Shown: piece after piece, positions 3,295 through 10,328 of the stretch
Numbering within the stretch: the stretch's first letter is position 1
Layout: every line of letters starts with the position of its first letter
NCBI GenBank assembly: GCA_012735505.1
Contig: JAAYHE010000062.1
Location: forward strand, 1 to 44,910
Origin: Bacillota bacterium
GTDB taxonomy: Bacteria; Bacillota; UBA994; UBA5500
Direction: 5' to 3'
Length of the DNA stretch: 44,910 nucleotides
Position numbers and translations under genes: made by a program
Notes under the pieces: generated by a model
Seen by the model: the letters and a program-made list of their open reading frames with translations, nothing else
Told to the model about the DNA's origin: nothing
Database searches by the model: none

Positions 3295-4788
3295 CTATTC
3301 GGCCAGGTTTTCGGCCAGCTGGATCAGGGTGCGGGTTGCGAAGCCGGTACCGCCTTTGACGCTGTAGCCTTTGCTGTTATCGGTGCGGGCCATGGCTGCG
3401 ATGTCCAGATGGGCCCAGGCGGCTTCCTTGATAAACTCGCTGATGATCAGGCCACCGGTGATAGCGCCGCCACCGCGGGCACCGCCGTTGCGCAGATCGG
3501 CCACATCGCTCTTGTACGTTTCGCGATAGAGGTCATGCACCGGCAAGCGCCAGAAGCGTTCGCCAGTCTGGCTGCCGGCTGCAATGACAGCCTCAGCTAG
3601 CTCGTCGTTGGTAGAAACAAGACCAGCATAAACGTCGCCCAAAGCTACGCCACAGGCTCCGGTAAGGGTGGCTACGTCGACAATCTTGCTAGCACCTTTC
3701 GATTCGGCATAAGCCACGGCGTCGGCCAAGATTAAACGGCCCTCGGCATCGGTGCTACCAATCTCAATGGTTTGACCGGTCATAGCCTGCAGCACATCGC
3801 TAGGCTTGAGAGCCGTGCCCGAAGGCAAGTTTTCGGTGCAAGGTACGACGCCTAGCACGTTAATCTTAGGCTTAAGTTGGGCAATAGCCTTCATAGCGCC
3901 CAGAACAGCGGCGCCGCCAGCCATGTCGGTCTTCATATTGGGCATACCGGCGCTGGCCTTAAGGGAAATACCGCCACTATCGAAAGTGATGCCCTTGCCT
4001 ACTAAGGCTAGCGTTTCCCCACCCGGGTTGCCTTCATAACGGAGGGTGATTAGCTTGGGCGGTTGGGCACTGCCTTGAGCCACACCTAACAGGCATCCCA
4101 TACCGAGGCGTTCCATATCTTCTTTTTCTAAAACCTCGAGCTCGAGCCCGGTCTCTTGGGCAACTTGTTCGGCTACGGCCGCCATATGGGTTGGTGTCAT
4201 GAGATTGGCAGGCGTATTGACCAGCTCGCGAGCCAAATTGGCTGCCTGAGCCATGATCTGGCCGCGCTTTACTCCCCGTTCGACGGCAGCTATTTTTTCG
4301 GGCTTATGTTCGACTACCAGCAGCTCGACAAATTTATCCTCATCTTTGGCATTAGGCTTTTTGCCCTTGTATTTGTAGGCAGCTAGCAAGGAGCCTTCTA
4401 CCGTCGCCTGGGCACAGGCTACGGGGCACAGCCCACCGATGCCGGCTCCGTGCACGATAGTCGCTATTTGCCGTGTTCTGCCCCTAGCAGCAACTTTGTA
4501 GGCCGCTCCAGCTACTTGCCGCACTCGCTCTAGATCAAATTTGTCGGCTTCGCCGAGGCCGACCACAATAACCTTGCCTACAGCCAAATTGGCCGGATAA
4601 AGCACTACCGTCTCCAGCAGTTTGCCGGAAAACTCGCCGTTCTCAATCAGGCGGCTGATCTGGCCATCTAGAGCTTGATCGACGGCGCCGGTAGCTCCAG
4701 CAGGTTTAGTCACCCCTTGGAAAAGGTTGACTATCCAGGCGTCGGCCTGGGTTTGGAGTAGATCCTGTTGCACCACTTGTACTCGCAT
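3295..4788 (-). CDS. pepA: Leucyl aminopeptidase (M17 family)
   Basis: A 497-residue cytosolic aminopeptidase that removes N-terminal residues from peptides using two metal ions; the family forms hexamers. The N-terminal macro-like domain runs to about residue 170 and the catalytic domain follows. Visible metal and active-site motifs are GKGITFDSGGISLK, KTDMAGGAAVLGAM and STDAEGRLILADA. The last motif is normally NTDAEGR; here Asn is replaced by Ser while the Asp, Glu and Arg needed for catalysis remain. The ATG has AGGAGG eight bases upstream. The next minus-strand gene upstream ends 70 bases away, so pepA may be read through from the ABC exporter. A repeat-type terminator follows. Confidence 0.95.
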   Translation of the reverse strand: MRVQVVQQDLLQTQADAWIVNLFQGVTKPAGATGAVDQALDGQISRLIENGEFSGKLLETVVLYPANLAVGKVIVVGLGEADKFDLERVRQVAGAAYKVAARGRTRQIATIVHGAGIGGLCPVACAQATVEGSLLAAYKYKGKKPNAKDEDKFVELLVVEHKPEKIAAVERGVKRGQIMAQAANLARELVNTPANLMTPTHMAAVAEQVAQETGLELEVLEKEDMERLGMGCLLGVAQGSAQPPKLITLRYEGNPGGETLALVGKGITFDSGGISLKASAGMPNMKTDMAGGAAVLGAMKAIAQLKPKINVLGVVPCTENLPSGTALKPSDVLQAMTGQTIEIGSTDAEGRLILADAVAYAESKGASKIVDVATLTGACGVALGDVYAGLVSTNDELAEAVIAAGSQTGERFWRLPVHDLYRETYKSDVADLRNGGARGGGAITGGLIISEFIKEAAWAHLDIAAMARTDNSKGYSVKGGTGFATRTLIQLAENLAE

Positions 4789-4858
4789 TATCTAAACCTC
4801 CTTGCGGTTTTCTTCCTTCTCCACTTCTCTAAAGGTAGGCAATTCTCCTTTTCCATAA

Positions 4859-7800
4859 TTATTCAACTGCCTTCATAGACTCAGCCATTTTGATTTGCTT
4901 CAGCTGGCGCGACATGACTAAGCACACCAAGCCGGAAAAGAGCAGCGTCAGTAAAGCCGCCCATAGATAGCTGAGGGGCGCAATGTTTTGTCCTAACATC
5001 AGGTCTTTAGACTCGGCCTGCCGAACGACAAAGGTGTGCAGTAGTCTTCCTAGGGGTAAGCCCACCAAGGCACCAATGACGCTGAGGATGGCCGTCTCTC
5101 GAAAGATGTAACCAGCTACCTCGCTGTGGTGGAAACCGAGTACTCGTAGGGTCGCCAACTCTTGGCGTCGCTCAGCAATGTTGATGTTGATCAGGTTATA
5201 AAGCACGATCACAGCTAAGGCTCCGGCGGCGACAATAATGACTACAACCAAGAAGTCGATCGACTCGATCAGCTGGTCGAAAGAATGCTTAGCCTGGGTT
5301 AAGAATTCGGCCCGGGTGACGGCTGGCAGCTCGAGCAGTTGGCTCAGCCAGTCGTCTTGGCTAGCCGCGTCTAAGGGAGCAGTCTTGGCCAGAATCGTAT
5401 TGACCTTAGCTGCTTCGCCAAAGGCTGCCTGATAGGCCGAGGGGTGGAGATAGACATAACTGCCCACATAGTTTTCACTGACAGCAGCGATAGTGAGCTC
5501 CACACTGACACCATCCGAGTCTTCGAGCTTGAGTTTATCTCCCGATTGCAGGCCTAGGGCGCGGGCTAGCGTTTCACTGACGACCACCGGATGAGTGGCC
5601 AAGTCTAAACTGGCACCGCTCGGCCGCTCGCGTAAGGTAATGAACCGGGGTAGGTCAGCGGCTGTTTGTGGCACATACATGGTAACCGAAGCATCGGTCT
5701 CACCCTGATAGACAGTAGCCCGGTCAAAATAGAGCTCTGTGTAGTCTAGCACTTGTTGTTCTTGGCTGAGCCAAGATTCTAATGCAGGGGCCAACAGCTC
5801 GGTTTCTTGACAGTCAATAGCCAGGTCGTACTGCAGCAGCTCACCAAACTGGATGTGGGGCAAGCCGCCTATCGAATCCTGTAGTCCAAAGCCGGTAACC
5901 AGCAGGGCAGTACAACCGGCCACGCCTACCACAGTCATATAGAAATGCTTTTTGTAACGGAAAAGGTTACGTGCCGTTGCCTTATGACTGAAGGTCAGCC
6001 GCGACCACAAGGGCTTAACCCTCTCTAGTAGAATACGCTTACCGGCTTTGGGCGGCCGCGGCCGCATCAGCATAGCCGGCTTTTCCTTTAAGGTTCGGTT
6101 GCAGACATAGATGGTGACCAGCATGGTCAGCAAGAAGGCCAACAGGGCGGCCACAATAGCAAAGGGCCAACGGAAGGGCGTATGAAGGGTGGGCAGCCGG
6201 TACATGGTAGCAAACACCTGCCAAATAACAGCTGGTATATAACGAAAACCAACCACCAGACCCGCGATGCTGCCGGCCAAGCTGGCTAGCCCACAGTAGC
6301 CGATGTATTTTTCCATGATGGCCCACTTGCCATAGCCTAGGGCCTTCATAATGCCGATCTGGGTCCGCTCCTCCTCTATCATACGTGTCATGGTGGCTAA
6401 AGAGACCAGGGCCGCCACCAGCATGAAGAAGACGGGGAAAACGGTGGCAATAGCCTGCACCTTTTCCGTATTCATGGTAAAGCTGACGTAGCTAACGTTG
6501 GCGTTGCGATCGAGCACATACCAGCTGGGCATTTCTAAGTCGTCTAGCTCTTGCGCCGCTGCCTCTATTTCAGCTTTCGCCTCTGCCAACTCCTGCTCAG
6601 CTTCTGCCCGGGCTTGCCAGTAGTCGGCCTCGCCGGTAGCCAGCTGGCGCAGGCCGGCTTGGTAATCGCTCTCCCCCTGCTCCAAGTCGAGGGCGGCTTG
6701 GGCTAACTCGGCTTCAGCTTGCGCCACTTCTTGTGCCAGGGTGGTTTTGGCGGCCTCCAGTGCTGCCATGCCAGCCCCATATTGCTGCCAACCCAGGTCA
6801 AGTTCCTGCCGCAGGGCGGCTGCCTGCTCCGGGCCAAGGAGGCCGGCTTCTAGGGCGGCTGCCAATGCTTGCTCGCCTTGCTCCAGTTCCTGCCGGGCCT
6901 GGGCCAAGTCTTGTTCATGCTGGGCCAGCTCGGCCTCGGCCTGGGCCTTTTCTTGGGCCAAAGTGGTGCGCGCTGCAACCAGGTCGGCATGGCCCTGATC
7001 TAACTCGGCCCTGGCTTGTGCCAACTCTCGCCGTGCATCTAAAATTTCTTGCCAGGCTTTAGCCAGCTGGCTGGCCGCTTCCTGTTCAGCGTCGGCCAGT
7101 TCTGCCCGCGCTTTGTCTAGTTCAGCTTGCCCCTCGCTATAGATCTGGCTGTAGCGTAGCTGCGACCTCTCTTCTCCTACTTGTTCTAGTTCGGCCACCA
7201 AGGCCTCGATGTGTTCCTCGTAGGCGTCATCGAAGGTCATTAGTTCTGCAACTTCATGGCAAGTAAGATAGACGTCGGTATAGAATTCCAGATCAAAACA
7301 GCTGTCGGCTATGTAGATGACAGTCTCCAAGCGCCCTTTACCAGCGCTACTCGGTTCCCGCTCATTGGCAAAGTAGAATGGGTTGGCCACTACACCCACC
7401 ACCGTGAATTCGGCGGTGGTAAAAAGCTCATCTTCGCCTTCCTCGTTAACAATAGTCAGGGTAGAACCTAGTTCCAACTGTTGCAAAAAGCTATTCCCCT
7501 GCTCCACCAAGCACTCATCAAGGGTTTGGGGGAGACGCCCCGCGACCAACTGCCAGCGGTTCACCGCCAAGGGCTCCTCGCCCTGTAACTGGGCCTGGGG
7601 CAGGCCATAGACCCTGGCCGTCAGGCGGCCGTTATCGGCGGTGGCTACCAGGCTGTCGATAACTTTAGCCGGCAGCAAGTTAGCTACCGAGGGTAGAGCG
7701 GCTAGGCTGGCTATATCATCGTTGGTCAATCCCATAGTAGCCTTAATAAACACGTCGGCTACCTGCTGCTGGTCGTAATAGCTGTCTAGCGACAGGCGCA

Positions 7801-7942
7801 TATCAGGTGTGGTAGACCAGAGGCCCGCCAAAAAGCCAACCCCTAGAGCGACGATGCCGAAGATAGCAAAAAAACGTCCAAAACTCTGGCGGATAGAACG
7901 CAGTATGCTCTTTAAATAGGCCCTACTCACCCTACCACTCAA
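4859..7942 (-). CDS. ABC exporter permease, FtsX/MacB-like with long coiled coil
   Basis: A 1027-residue membrane protein. One helix near residues 24-44 is followed by an extracytoplasmic MacB-type domain, then a coiled coil at about 245-467 rich in AELAQA-type repeats. The first FtsX core (three helices, about 490-625) has the signature EEERTQIGIMKALGYGKW. A single helix follows near 665-685, then a second periplasmic-type domain, and the second FtsX core (about 890-1027) has AERRQELATLRVLGF. The two FtsX cores in one chain suit a permease working with a single ATPase type. It overlaps the ATPase gene by 11 bases. Proteins of this shape usually transmit ATP-driven motion to the outside or export peptides or lipids; the substrate is unknown here. 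Confidence 0.92.
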   Translation of the reverse strand: MSGRVSRAYLKSILRSIRQSFGRFFAIFGIVALGVGFLAGLWSTTPDMRLSLDSYYDQQQVADVFIKATMGLTNDDIASLAALPSVANLLPAKVIDSLVATADNGRLTARVYGLPQAQLQGEEPLAVNRWQLVAGRLPQTLDECLVEQGNSFLQQLELGSTLTIVNEEGEDELFTTAEFTVVGVVANPFYFANEREPSSAGKGRLETVIYIADSCFDLEFYTDVYLTCHEVAELMTFDDAYEEHIEALVAELEQVGEERSQLRYSQIYSEGQAELDKARAELADAEQEAASQLAKAWQEILDARRELAQARAELDQGHADLVAARTTLAQEKAQAEAELAQHEQDLAQARQELEQGEQALAAALEAGLLGPEQAAALRQELDLGWQQYGAGMAALEAAKTTLAQEVAQAEAELAQAALDLEQGESDYQAGLRQLATGEADYWQARAEAEQELAEAKAEIEAAAQELDDLEMPSWYVLDRNANVSYVSFTMNTEKVQAIATVFPVFFMLVAALVSLATMTRMIEEERTQIGIMKALGYGKWAIMEKYIGYCGLASLAGSIAGLVVGFRYIPAVIWQVFATMYRLPTLHTPFRWPFAIVAALLAFLLTMLVTIYVCNRTLKEKPAMLMRPRPPKAGKRILLERVKPLWSRLTFSHKATARNLFRYKKHFYMTVVGVAGCTALLVTGFGLQDSIGGLPHIQFGELLQYDLAIDCQETELLAPALESWLSQEQQVLDYTELYFDRATVYQGETDASVTMYVPQTAADLPRFITLRERPSGASLDLATHPVVVSETLARALGLQSGDKLKLEDSDGVSVELTIAAVSENYVGSYVYLHPSAYQAAFGEAAKVNTILAKTAPLDAASQDDWLSQLLELPAVTRAEFLTQAKHSFDQLIESIDFLVVVIIVAAGALAVIVLYNLININIAERRQELATLRVLGFHHSEVAGYIFRETAILSVIGALVGLPLGRLLHTFVVRQAESKDLMLGQNIAPLSYLWAALLTLLFSGLVCLVMSRQLKQIKMAESMKAVE

Positions 7943-8636
7943 TCCTTTCTACCGGCAGCGGCTTGGCATTTTGCTCCACCCTGGCTACTCTGCCACTGCG
8001 CAGATGAATCACCCGGTCGGCCATCTGGGTGATGGCTTGATTGTGGGTAATCACGATCACCGTTTTGCCTGTCTGCCGGCAGCTGTCTTGCAAAAGTTGC
8101 AAGACATTCTTACCTGTCTCGTAGTCTAGGGCACCCGTCGGCTCGTCGCAGAGCAGAATTTTGGGGTTCTTAGCCAAGGCGCGGGCAATGGCCACCCGCT
8201 GCTGCTCTCCGCCCGAGAGCTGGGCCGGGAAGTTATGCATGCGATCGGCTAAACCAACTGCGTCCAACACTTCCTTCGGATCGAGGGGGTCATGACAAAT
8301 TTCCGAAGCCAACTCTACATTTTCTAGCGCCGTCAGGTTCGGCACCAGGTTATAAAACTGAGAGACGAAACCGACCTCATGGCGGCGGTAGTCGGTCAAC
8401 TGCTTTTCGTTGAGCTTGCTAACCTCACAGTCGTCGAGTCGAATGAGGCCGCTGTCACAAGCGTCCATACCTCCCAACATATTCAAAATCGTCGTCTTAC
8501 CGGCACCACTAGGGCCGACCATGACGCAGAACTCGCCTCTATCAATGGTAAAACTCACCTGATCAGCGGCTTTGATCAGTTGCTCACCCATCCGATAATA
8601 TTTGGAGACGTCTTCGAATACGACAAAATCCTTCAT
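7932..8636 (-). CDS. ABC exporter ATP-binding protein (MacB/LolD type)
   Basis: A 234-residue ATPase of the MacB/LolD group. Walker A is GPSGAGKTT (41-49), a Q-loop lies in [10 protein letters not shown], the signature is LSGGEQQR (140-147), Walker B is ILLCDEP (160-166) and the H-loop is VIVITHN. It is the energy subunit for the permease encoded just downstream with an 11-base overlap. The ATG has GCAAGGAGCAAAG upstream. A good minus-strand promoter lies at 8686-8715, so the transporter pair has its own transcript, possibly continuing into pepA. Confidence 0.95.
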
Positions 8637-8685
8637 GCTCTTTGCTCCTTGCTTGATAGTTCACATGGCAACTATTCTTATTATG

Positions 8686-8715
8686 ATTATGAGCCTCTGC
8701 TCACAAGCCTGTCAA
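8686..8715 (-). promoter_or_regulatory. Sigma-A-type promoter for the ABC exporter
   Basis: On the minus strand TTGACA (8715-8710) is followed by an 18-base spacer and CATAAT (8691-8686). The ATPase start lies about 50 bases downstream. Confidence 0.65.
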
Positions 8716-8745
8716 GTGCATAAACAGTTTTAATATGAAGACATG

Positions 8746-8774
8746 TTGTTTAACCTATAAAGCAATCATATAAT
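8746..8774 (+). promoter_or_regulatory. Sigma-A-type promoter for the leader-DUF3343-desulfurase unit
   Basis: TTGTTT (8746-8751), a 17-base spacer and a perfect TATAAT (8769-8774). It is divergent from the exporter promoter and leaves a leader of roughly 75 bases before the 30-residue cistron. A weaker second option, TTGAAG near 8808, lies closer to the gene. Confidence 0.7.
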
Positions 8775-8857
8775 GGGTATGACATGGTGAATGAAGCACG
8801 CGGTATGATTGAAGTTAAGTAGAAACCCAAGATTATAGGCAAGGAGGTTAGAGCTTA

Positions 8858-8950
8858 ATGCACAACACAAGCAGCCCTCTGCAGCATAGGCTCAAATTAA
8901 TGGGCCTAATGCTAGCAAGTGGCAGATTAGCATTAAGCTTTAAAGGATGA
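8858..8950 (+). CDS. 30-residue leader peptide coupled to the DUF3343 gene
   Basis: A short open frame starts with ATG at 8858, with a strong AAGGAGG ten bases before it. It encodes 30 residues, MHNTSSPLQHRLKLMGLML and then ASGRLALSFKG, rich in leucine and with no cysteine. Its TGA stop overlaps the next gene's ATG as ATGA (8947-8950). The downstream gene has no properly spaced ribosome binding site, since AAAGG directly abuts its ATG. Translation of the downstream gene is therefore expected to depend on ribosomes ending here. A hairpin (8907-8935) lies inside the last third of the frame. I see no family match; the peptide may matter only through its translation. Confidence rests on the ribosome binding site and the overlap. 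Confidence 0.6.
   Translation: MHNTSSPLQHRLKLMGLMLASGRLALSFKG
8907..8935 (+). promoter_or_regulatory. Hairpin just upstream of the DUF3343 start
   Basis: A perfect 8-bp stem, TAATGCTA (8907-8914) with TAGCATTA (8928-8935), has a 13-base loop. It ends 11 bases before the DUF3343 ATG and would be opened by ribosomes translating the leader cistron. Confidence 0.5.
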
Positions 8951-9189
8951 CAACTAAACCAGAGCTATATGTAATTACCTTTCACTCGACCTATTGGGCA
9001 TTTGAAGCCGAAACAGTATTGCAAGAGCACGGTTTCCAATGCCGTTTGCGGCCGGTGCCCCGGGAGTTTAGTTCCTCTTGTGGCATCTGCGCCGAAGTAT
9101 TAGCTGAAGATATGGAAGAAATTTTGGCCATCCTGCAAGAGCAGGGACTGGAACACGACGCTACTTATGGACCATTGAAAGGAAGATAA
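8947..9189 (+). CDS. DUF3343 putative Se/S carrier-like protein
   Basis: An 80-residue protein of the DUF3343 family. It has the usual opening (ELYVITFHSTYWAFEAETVL), a beta-alpha-beta ferredoxin-like size and the family motif PREFSSSCGIC, with two cysteines at about residues 45 and 48. The family is proposed to carry sulfur or selenium on the conserved cysteine, partly because its genes lie beside cysteine-desulfurase-like and selenium genes. That fits here: the desulfurase-like gene begins two bases after this stop. The start ATG overlaps the leader cistron stop as ATGA. The carrier role is inference from family and neighbours. Confidence 0.85.
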   Translation: MTTKPELYVITFHSTYWAFEAETVLQEHGFQCRLRPVPREFSSSCGICAEVLAEDMEEILAILQEQGLEHDATYGPLKGR

Positions 9190-9191
9190 AA

Positions 9192-10328
9192 TTGAAACAA
9201 CTATATCTTGATCATGCTGCCACATCTTGGCCTAAACCAGAAGCGGTTAAAACCGCTATGCTGCGGGCCTTAGAGCAGTCGGGCAACCCCGGCCGCTCGG
9301 GCCATCGCCTGTCGCTGGATGCAGCCCGCTTCATTCACAAAGCGCGCCATACGGTGAGCAAGTTCTTTAATGCTACTAGCTCCACACAAATTGTCTTTAC
9401 TTTAAATGCAACCGATGCCCTCAATATGGCTATTAAGGGCCTAGTCAAAGCAGGTGATCATGTTATCACCACCTGCCTCGAACATAATTCGGTTCTGCGG
9501 CCGCTGTTTGCTCTGCAAAAGGCCGGGCAGATCGAGCTCACAGTCTTGGAGCTACAAGACGGCACAGTACAGCCGGAACAATTTGCCCAAGCCATGCAGC
9601 CTCACACAGCCCTAGTCGCCATGACCCACGCCTCCAACGTGACCGGGGCTGTTATCGATGTAGCCACCGTCAGTCAAATTTGCCAAGAGCGAGGTGTGAA
9701 ACTGCTAGTAGACGCCTCGCAGACGGCCGGAGTGCTGCCTATCGATGTGCAAGCCCTCGACCTGGCAGTTATGGCCTGCAGTGGGCACAAGAGCCTGCTC
9801 GGCCCCCAAGGAACCGGTGTGCTCTATGTGCGACCCGATATCGAGCTTGCTTTCTGGCGAGAAGGCGGTACCGGCAGTATTTCTCACGAAGTGTACCAGC
9901 CGGCCTTTATGCCCGACCGCATGGAAGCCGGCACACCTAACACCATCGGCATTGCCGGGCTGGGCGCAGGCGTCGAGTTTCTGCAGCAAGTAGGGCTAGA
10001 AACGATTAGCCAAGGCGAAAAAGCCCTAGCTGCACGCTTGCGTCAAGGTCTACGCCAAATTAAAGGCTTAACCGTCTATGGGCCAGAAAGCGGCGTAGGT
10101 GTAGTATCGGTTAACTTAGAGGGCTTCGATTCGGCCGAACTGTCGGTACGGCTCGAACGCGACTATGGCATTCTAACCCGCCCTGGCCTCCATTGTGCCC
10201 CGTTAGCCCATCAGGCCATCGGCACCTATCCCCACGGCACAACCCGCATTAGCGTCGGCTATTCCACTACCGAAGACGAGGTAGATGCGGTAATCGAGGC
10301 CTTAAGCGAGTTGGCAAAGGCAAAATAA
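9192..10328 (+). CDS. Cysteine desulfurase-like aminotransferase class V (PLP)
   Basis: A 378-residue PLP enzyme of the NifS/SufS fold, close to the subgroup of desulfurase-related proteins found beside DUF3343. It opens with the desulfurase signature YLDHAATSWPKP. The PLP-binding lysine is in SGHKSLLGPQGTG, with the upstream Asp in LLVDASQTAG. A possible sulfur-accepting cysteine lies in RPGLHCAPLAH, followed by TTRISVGYSTTEDEV. The TTG start has a GGAAG five to six bases upstream, and the gene starts two bases after the DUF3343 stop. It likely removes sulfur or selenium from cysteine or selenocysteine and passes it to the small partner; the substrate and acceptor are not proven. A long hairpin follows the stop. 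Confidence 0.9.
   Translation: MKQLYLDHAATSWPKPEAVKTAMLRALEQSGNPGRSGHRLSLDAARFIHKARHTVSKFFNATSSTQIVFTLNATDALNMAIKGLVKAGDHVITTCLEHNSVLRPLFALQKAGQIELTVLELQDGTVQPEQFAQAMQPHTALVAMTHASNVTGAVIDVATVSQICQERGVKLLVDASQTAGVLPIDVQALDLAVMACSGHKSLLGPQGTGVLYVRPDIELAFWREGGTGSISHEVYQPAFMPDRMEAGTPNTIGIAGLGAGVEFLQQVGLETISQGEKALAARLRQGLRQIKGLTVYGPESGVGVVSVNLEGFDSAELSVRLERDYGILTRPGLHCAPLAHQAIGTYPHGTTRISVGYSTTEDEVDAVIEALSELAKAK

Follow-up and report, generated by a model that had tools for sequence, protein, structure and literature searches.

The closest described counterpart of the locus analyzed here is the yedE/SirA-like/DUF3343/Sec lyase cluster; in Slackia heliotrinireducens, the yedE, SirA-like, and DUF3343 genes are neighbors by locus number (Table 1 in Genome Biol Evol 2015, PMC5322559). 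Two further kinds of system bear on its interpretation. Some short upstream open reading frames (ORFs) deliver ribosomes to the gene to which they are coupled (reviewed in PMC12548453), and termination-reinitiation takes place at ATGA overlaps (PMC6728339); the latter source and PMC10666635 both describe coupling between genes that overlap or lie very close together. In leader-peptide attenuators, as in the stretch of DNA considered below, a structural gene is preceded by a short frame that has a good ribosome site of its own.

The window, by which we mean the whole 44,910-nucleotide stretch that was analyzed, contains a DUF3343 gene that an earlier note proposed to encode a sulfur or selenium carrier and to be controlled by a 30-codon leader cistron. 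The carrier assignment is supported by a match of the product to PF11823 at 79.5 bits, against a curated cut-off of 25. The 30-codon frame, the AAGGAGG sequence 10 nt 5' of its ATG, and the ATGA in which its stop overlaps the DUF3343 start (positions 8947 to 8950) are all exact in the sequence. The product of this ORF, MHNTSSPLQHRLKLMGLMLASGRLALSFKG (30 amino acids), has no Pfam match, and the CPxP stretch is gone. As set out below, the ORF is the relic of a TusA/SirA-like gene, not a member of that family, and the supposed leader cistron is this gene relic rather than an evolved leader peptide.

Features of the tusA-DUF3343 region, in coordinates of the window
Feature	Position	Strand	Remarks
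TTTAATAT box 5' of promoter	8729..8736	+	Common to yedE promoters of G001, G002, and own contig C8; four loci
Promoter-like TTGTTT-17 nt-TATAAT	8746..8774	+	Core and spacing as 5' of yedE in G001, G002, and own C8
yedE 3'-end relic, GKEVRA-stop	8838..8858	+	Stop TAA overlaps tusA start codon
Shine-Dalgarno AAGGAGG	8841..8847	+	Of the former tusA gene
30-codon ORF (leader of the earlier note)	8858..8950	+	tusA relic; old start, shifted frame, ending in ATGA
tusA 3'-end relic	8890..8943	+	Old frame, AQINGPNASKWQISIKL-stop
8-bp stem of the earlier note	8907..8935	+	5' arm in decayed tusA, 3' arm in former ISIK codons
DUF3343 (Se_S_carrier, PF11823) gene	8947..9189	+	80 amino acids
Cysteine desulfurase family gene (TIGR01977)	9192..10328	+	Operon partner

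The closest relatives of the DUF3343 protein (83%, 73%, and 73% identical) come from three genomes, G001, G002, and G003, that belong to the same family as the window but not to the same genus. At the position of the short ORF, all three carry a complete 72-codon TusA/SirA-like gene (G001 and G003 being near-duplicates at this locus), and these genes match PF01206 at 44.9 to 46.2 bits (cut-off, 28.6). Conservation of the 30-codon frame, looked for at the family level, is therefore absent, the full gene standing there in 3/3 relatives. The ATGA overlap is likewise missing, DUF3343 instead starting three bases past the tusA stop (TAGAGGATG, TAGATAATG). The gene order in the relatives is yedE, encoding a YedE-type membrane protein and putative selenium transporter, then a single-domain tusA-like gene, DUF3343, and cysteine desulfurase, a row like that of the cluster described in PMC5322559; the window differs from that cluster in retaining only pieces of yedE and the tusA-like gene, whose intact versions form a pair on a different contig. 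A second DUF3343 paralogue, of 90 amino acids and 40% identical, was also observed (L002 1450-1722, G000:C40); it overlaps a mechanosensitive-channel-like gene in a gene row with an rpsF-like gene at its end, and it is present in 3/3 relatives as well (L006 to L008).

The window is collinear with G002 over positions 3299 to 8785 and 8915 to 10303, and between these blocks G002 has approximately 1.3 kb, comprising yedE and most of tusA, against 130 bp in the window. In a search of 8.9 kb, a profile of the intact region matched positions 8827 to 8867 (E 3e-6) and 8889 to 8942 (nhmmer, E 9e-6), in order and adjoining DUF3343. The first match includes the segment from 8837 to 8862 (the yedE end, the Shine-Dalgarno sequence, and TAATGCA), which is identical at 24/26 bases to the intact copy that the same genome carries on contig C8 and at 23/26 to G002. 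The second holds a diverged copy of the last approximately 17 tusA codons, reading in the old frame AQINGPNASKWQISIKL-stop in the window, PQIKETSAGEWEISIKL-stop in G002, and AQINETAGGEWEISVKL-stop in G001. The middle of the relic (8868 to 8916), taken alone, gave a tusA alignment not above shuffles, and a yedE relic sought upstream of 8838 was not significant against shuffles. The remnants share their start signals and 3' end with the tusA-like genes of the relatives, and because the start signals of the ORF are those of a homologous gene, they are beyond chance. As is characteristic of a pseudogene, the window holds collinear pieces of a gene that is intact at the syntenic place in the relatives, and these pieces have suffered deletion and a broken frame; the case for descent of the ORF from tusA is strong.

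From the start codon to the old tusA stop, the distance has fallen from 219 to 86 nt, and with 133 bp net missing the old start now reads a different frame. Frame 0 from this start ends at the TGA at 8948, within the ATGA overlap; frame +1 ends at 8907, and frame +2 runs to the old tusA stop, the TAA at 8941. Since a new frame reaching the ATGA is roughly a one-in-three outcome, the overlap does not by itself prove selection. An Rfam search of positions 8600 to 9300 found nothing near the gathering score, and a search of viral contigs found no relative.

The intact yedE-tusA pair on contig C8 encodes a YedE protein that matches TIGR04112 (seleno_YedE) at 470 bits and a TusA protein 82% identical to that of G002, near the 83% of DUF3343 and in line with vertical descent in this family. 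The arrangement TTTAATAT...TTGTnT-17 nt-TATAAT is common to the window, C8, and the operons of G001 and G002; because window and C8 share this promoter, the pair was probably copied to C8 together with its promoter and the original then deleted, an order of events that we infer. A separate observation concerns the box itself, which lies 9 to 16 nt before TTGTnT-17-TATAAT in the window (8729 to 8774), in L048 (about 6620 to 6690), and upstream of yedE in G001 and G002, and which could be a candidate operator or UP-like element. That the missing pair is an assembly artifact, the contig having merged two yedE-tusA copies and lost the pair at this site, might be suggested by the division of the genome into 87 contigs, another of which carries yedE-tusA. 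A collapse would not, however, create the point changes and in-frame stop of the relic, and the relic tail is closer to G002 (23/27 identical) than to the C8 copy (18/27), so that we give such an error hardly any credence. Loss of the selenium trait was considered as a cause of decay and rejected: the genome, like its relatives, has tRNA-Sec and a selD gene with an in-frame TGA, and it retains the intact yedE-tusA pair. It uses selenium, and trait loss thus offers no explanation. As a side observation, selD has one in-frame TGA in 4/4 genomes (G000 to G003; loci L028 to L031), so SelD itself is probably a selenoprotein.

The earlier note further proposed that a hairpin within the ORF is opened by ribosomes translating the leader, and a dedicated leader-peptide element of this kind, in which translation of the 30 codons switches DUF3343 on, would account for the strong Shine-Dalgarno sequence, the ATGA overlap, and the perfect 8-bp stem. 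The stem is indeed present, its arms (8907 to 8914 and 8928 to 8935) being perfect reverse complements, but a perfect stem of at least 8 bp also occurs in 56/1,000 dinucleotide shuffles of the ORF (5.6%) and in 23 of the 482 93-nt tiles across the window (4.8%). The folding energy does not stand out (z -0.45 for 8900 to 8952 and z -1.38 for 8858 to 8965), and in the longer fold (8858 to 8965) the stem is unformed, its 5' arm pairing upstream (8883 to 8893 with 8902 to 8913). That arm is missing from the relatives, and the stem leaves the DUF3343 start uncovered. No terminator was found after it, and the hairpin is neither conserved in the relatives nor above shuffles in energy. From leader-peptide attenuators the window differs in that it showed no terminator, no conserved alternative hairpins, and no conserved peptide. 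On fold energies, competing pairing, and shuffle frequency we reject the hairpin as a control element; it requires no functional explanation. The frame occurs in none of the three relatives, which have the full gene in its place, and it arose when an internal deletion shifted the reading frame; a dedicated leader that acts through a hairpin is very improbable.

In the window, the ribosome site of DUF3343 itself is poor (AAAGG touching the ATG), and the DUF3343 genes of the relatives have little or no Shine-Dalgarno sequence of their own; the stop/start arrangement of a coupled pair is present both in the window, as ATGA, and in the relatives, as the three-base gap. The class includes two other families (L072 in G012 and L073 in G004) in which a tusA-like gene likewise stands directly 5' of a divergent DUF3343 gene, the stop and the start being in contact or almost in contact. 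The three-base gap, the weak or absent Shine-Dalgarno sequence, and the close spacing in L072 and L073 make it likely, as judged from sequence, that DUF3343 was ancestrally translated by ribosomes coming from tusA. The note's contention that DUF3343 needs ribosomes from the leader thus stands in part: given the poor site and the close upstream stop in the relatives, delivery from upstream is likely, whereas the source is a gene remnant. Under the opposing account, DUF3343 relies on the weak site in front of it, and the short ORF is transient debris without a function; the frame is not conserved, the deletion may be recent, and a frame reaching the DUF3343 start is a likely accident. We regard this as unlikely, although a good deal less so than hairpin control, because the poor site of DUF3343 and the closely spaced tusA stop recur in the relatives and because AAGGAGG and the ATG have been kept, with 23 to 24 of 26 bases identical.

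Overall, we consider it highly probable that the supposed leader is what remains of a tusA/SirA-like gene from a selenium operon whose yedE-tusA pair now lies on C8; the relic probably still feeds DUF3343. The ancestral operon would have been yedE-tusA-DUF3343-cysteine desulfurase; the yedE-tusA pair would have come, together with its promoter core, to the second site on C8, and the original would then have been deleted, leaving behind the promoter core, the yedE stop/tusA start overlap, the tusA Shine-Dalgarno sequence, and approximately 17 diverged 3' tusA codons out of frame. Ribosomes would load at the old tusA site, translate 30 codons, stop at the ATGA, and restart on DUF3343, as they probably did earlier from full-length tusA. 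The relic, the synteny, and the intact second copy are observed; the copy-then-delete route and the continued role as an on-ramp we infer, and continued delivery of ribosomes is a plausible and parsimonious reading. Like the ribosome-delivering ORFs of PMC12548453 and PMC6728339, the relic combines good start signals and a short frame with a stop that overlaps the start codon of a gene whose own site is poor; unlike them, it descends by deletion from a normal coupled gene, and its translation is predicted.

It is possible, but rather doubtful, that selection now keeps the start signals and the last approximately 27 nt of the dead gene as an on-ramp for DUF3343, an upstream ORF born by decay. 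The two relic ends show 85 to 88% identity to G002, whereas fourfold sites in the desulfurase gene show 41%. This difference fits selection, but it fits a recent deletion just as well, because these bases were formerly constrained by the TusA protein. When G002 and G001 are compared, an excess of conserved silent sites in the tail of tusA (5/6 against 20/49, p 0.06) is suggestive only.

In summary, an apparent leader-peptide regulator is corrected to a gene remnant. An operon of coupled genes can be stripped of its upstream gene and still retain the ribosome entry site on which the downstream gene may depend, and gene decay is thus a possible route for the origin of short upstream ORFs. For this uncultured family of the Bacillota, the locus documents a selenium operon split into yedE-tusA and DUF3343-desulfurase parts.
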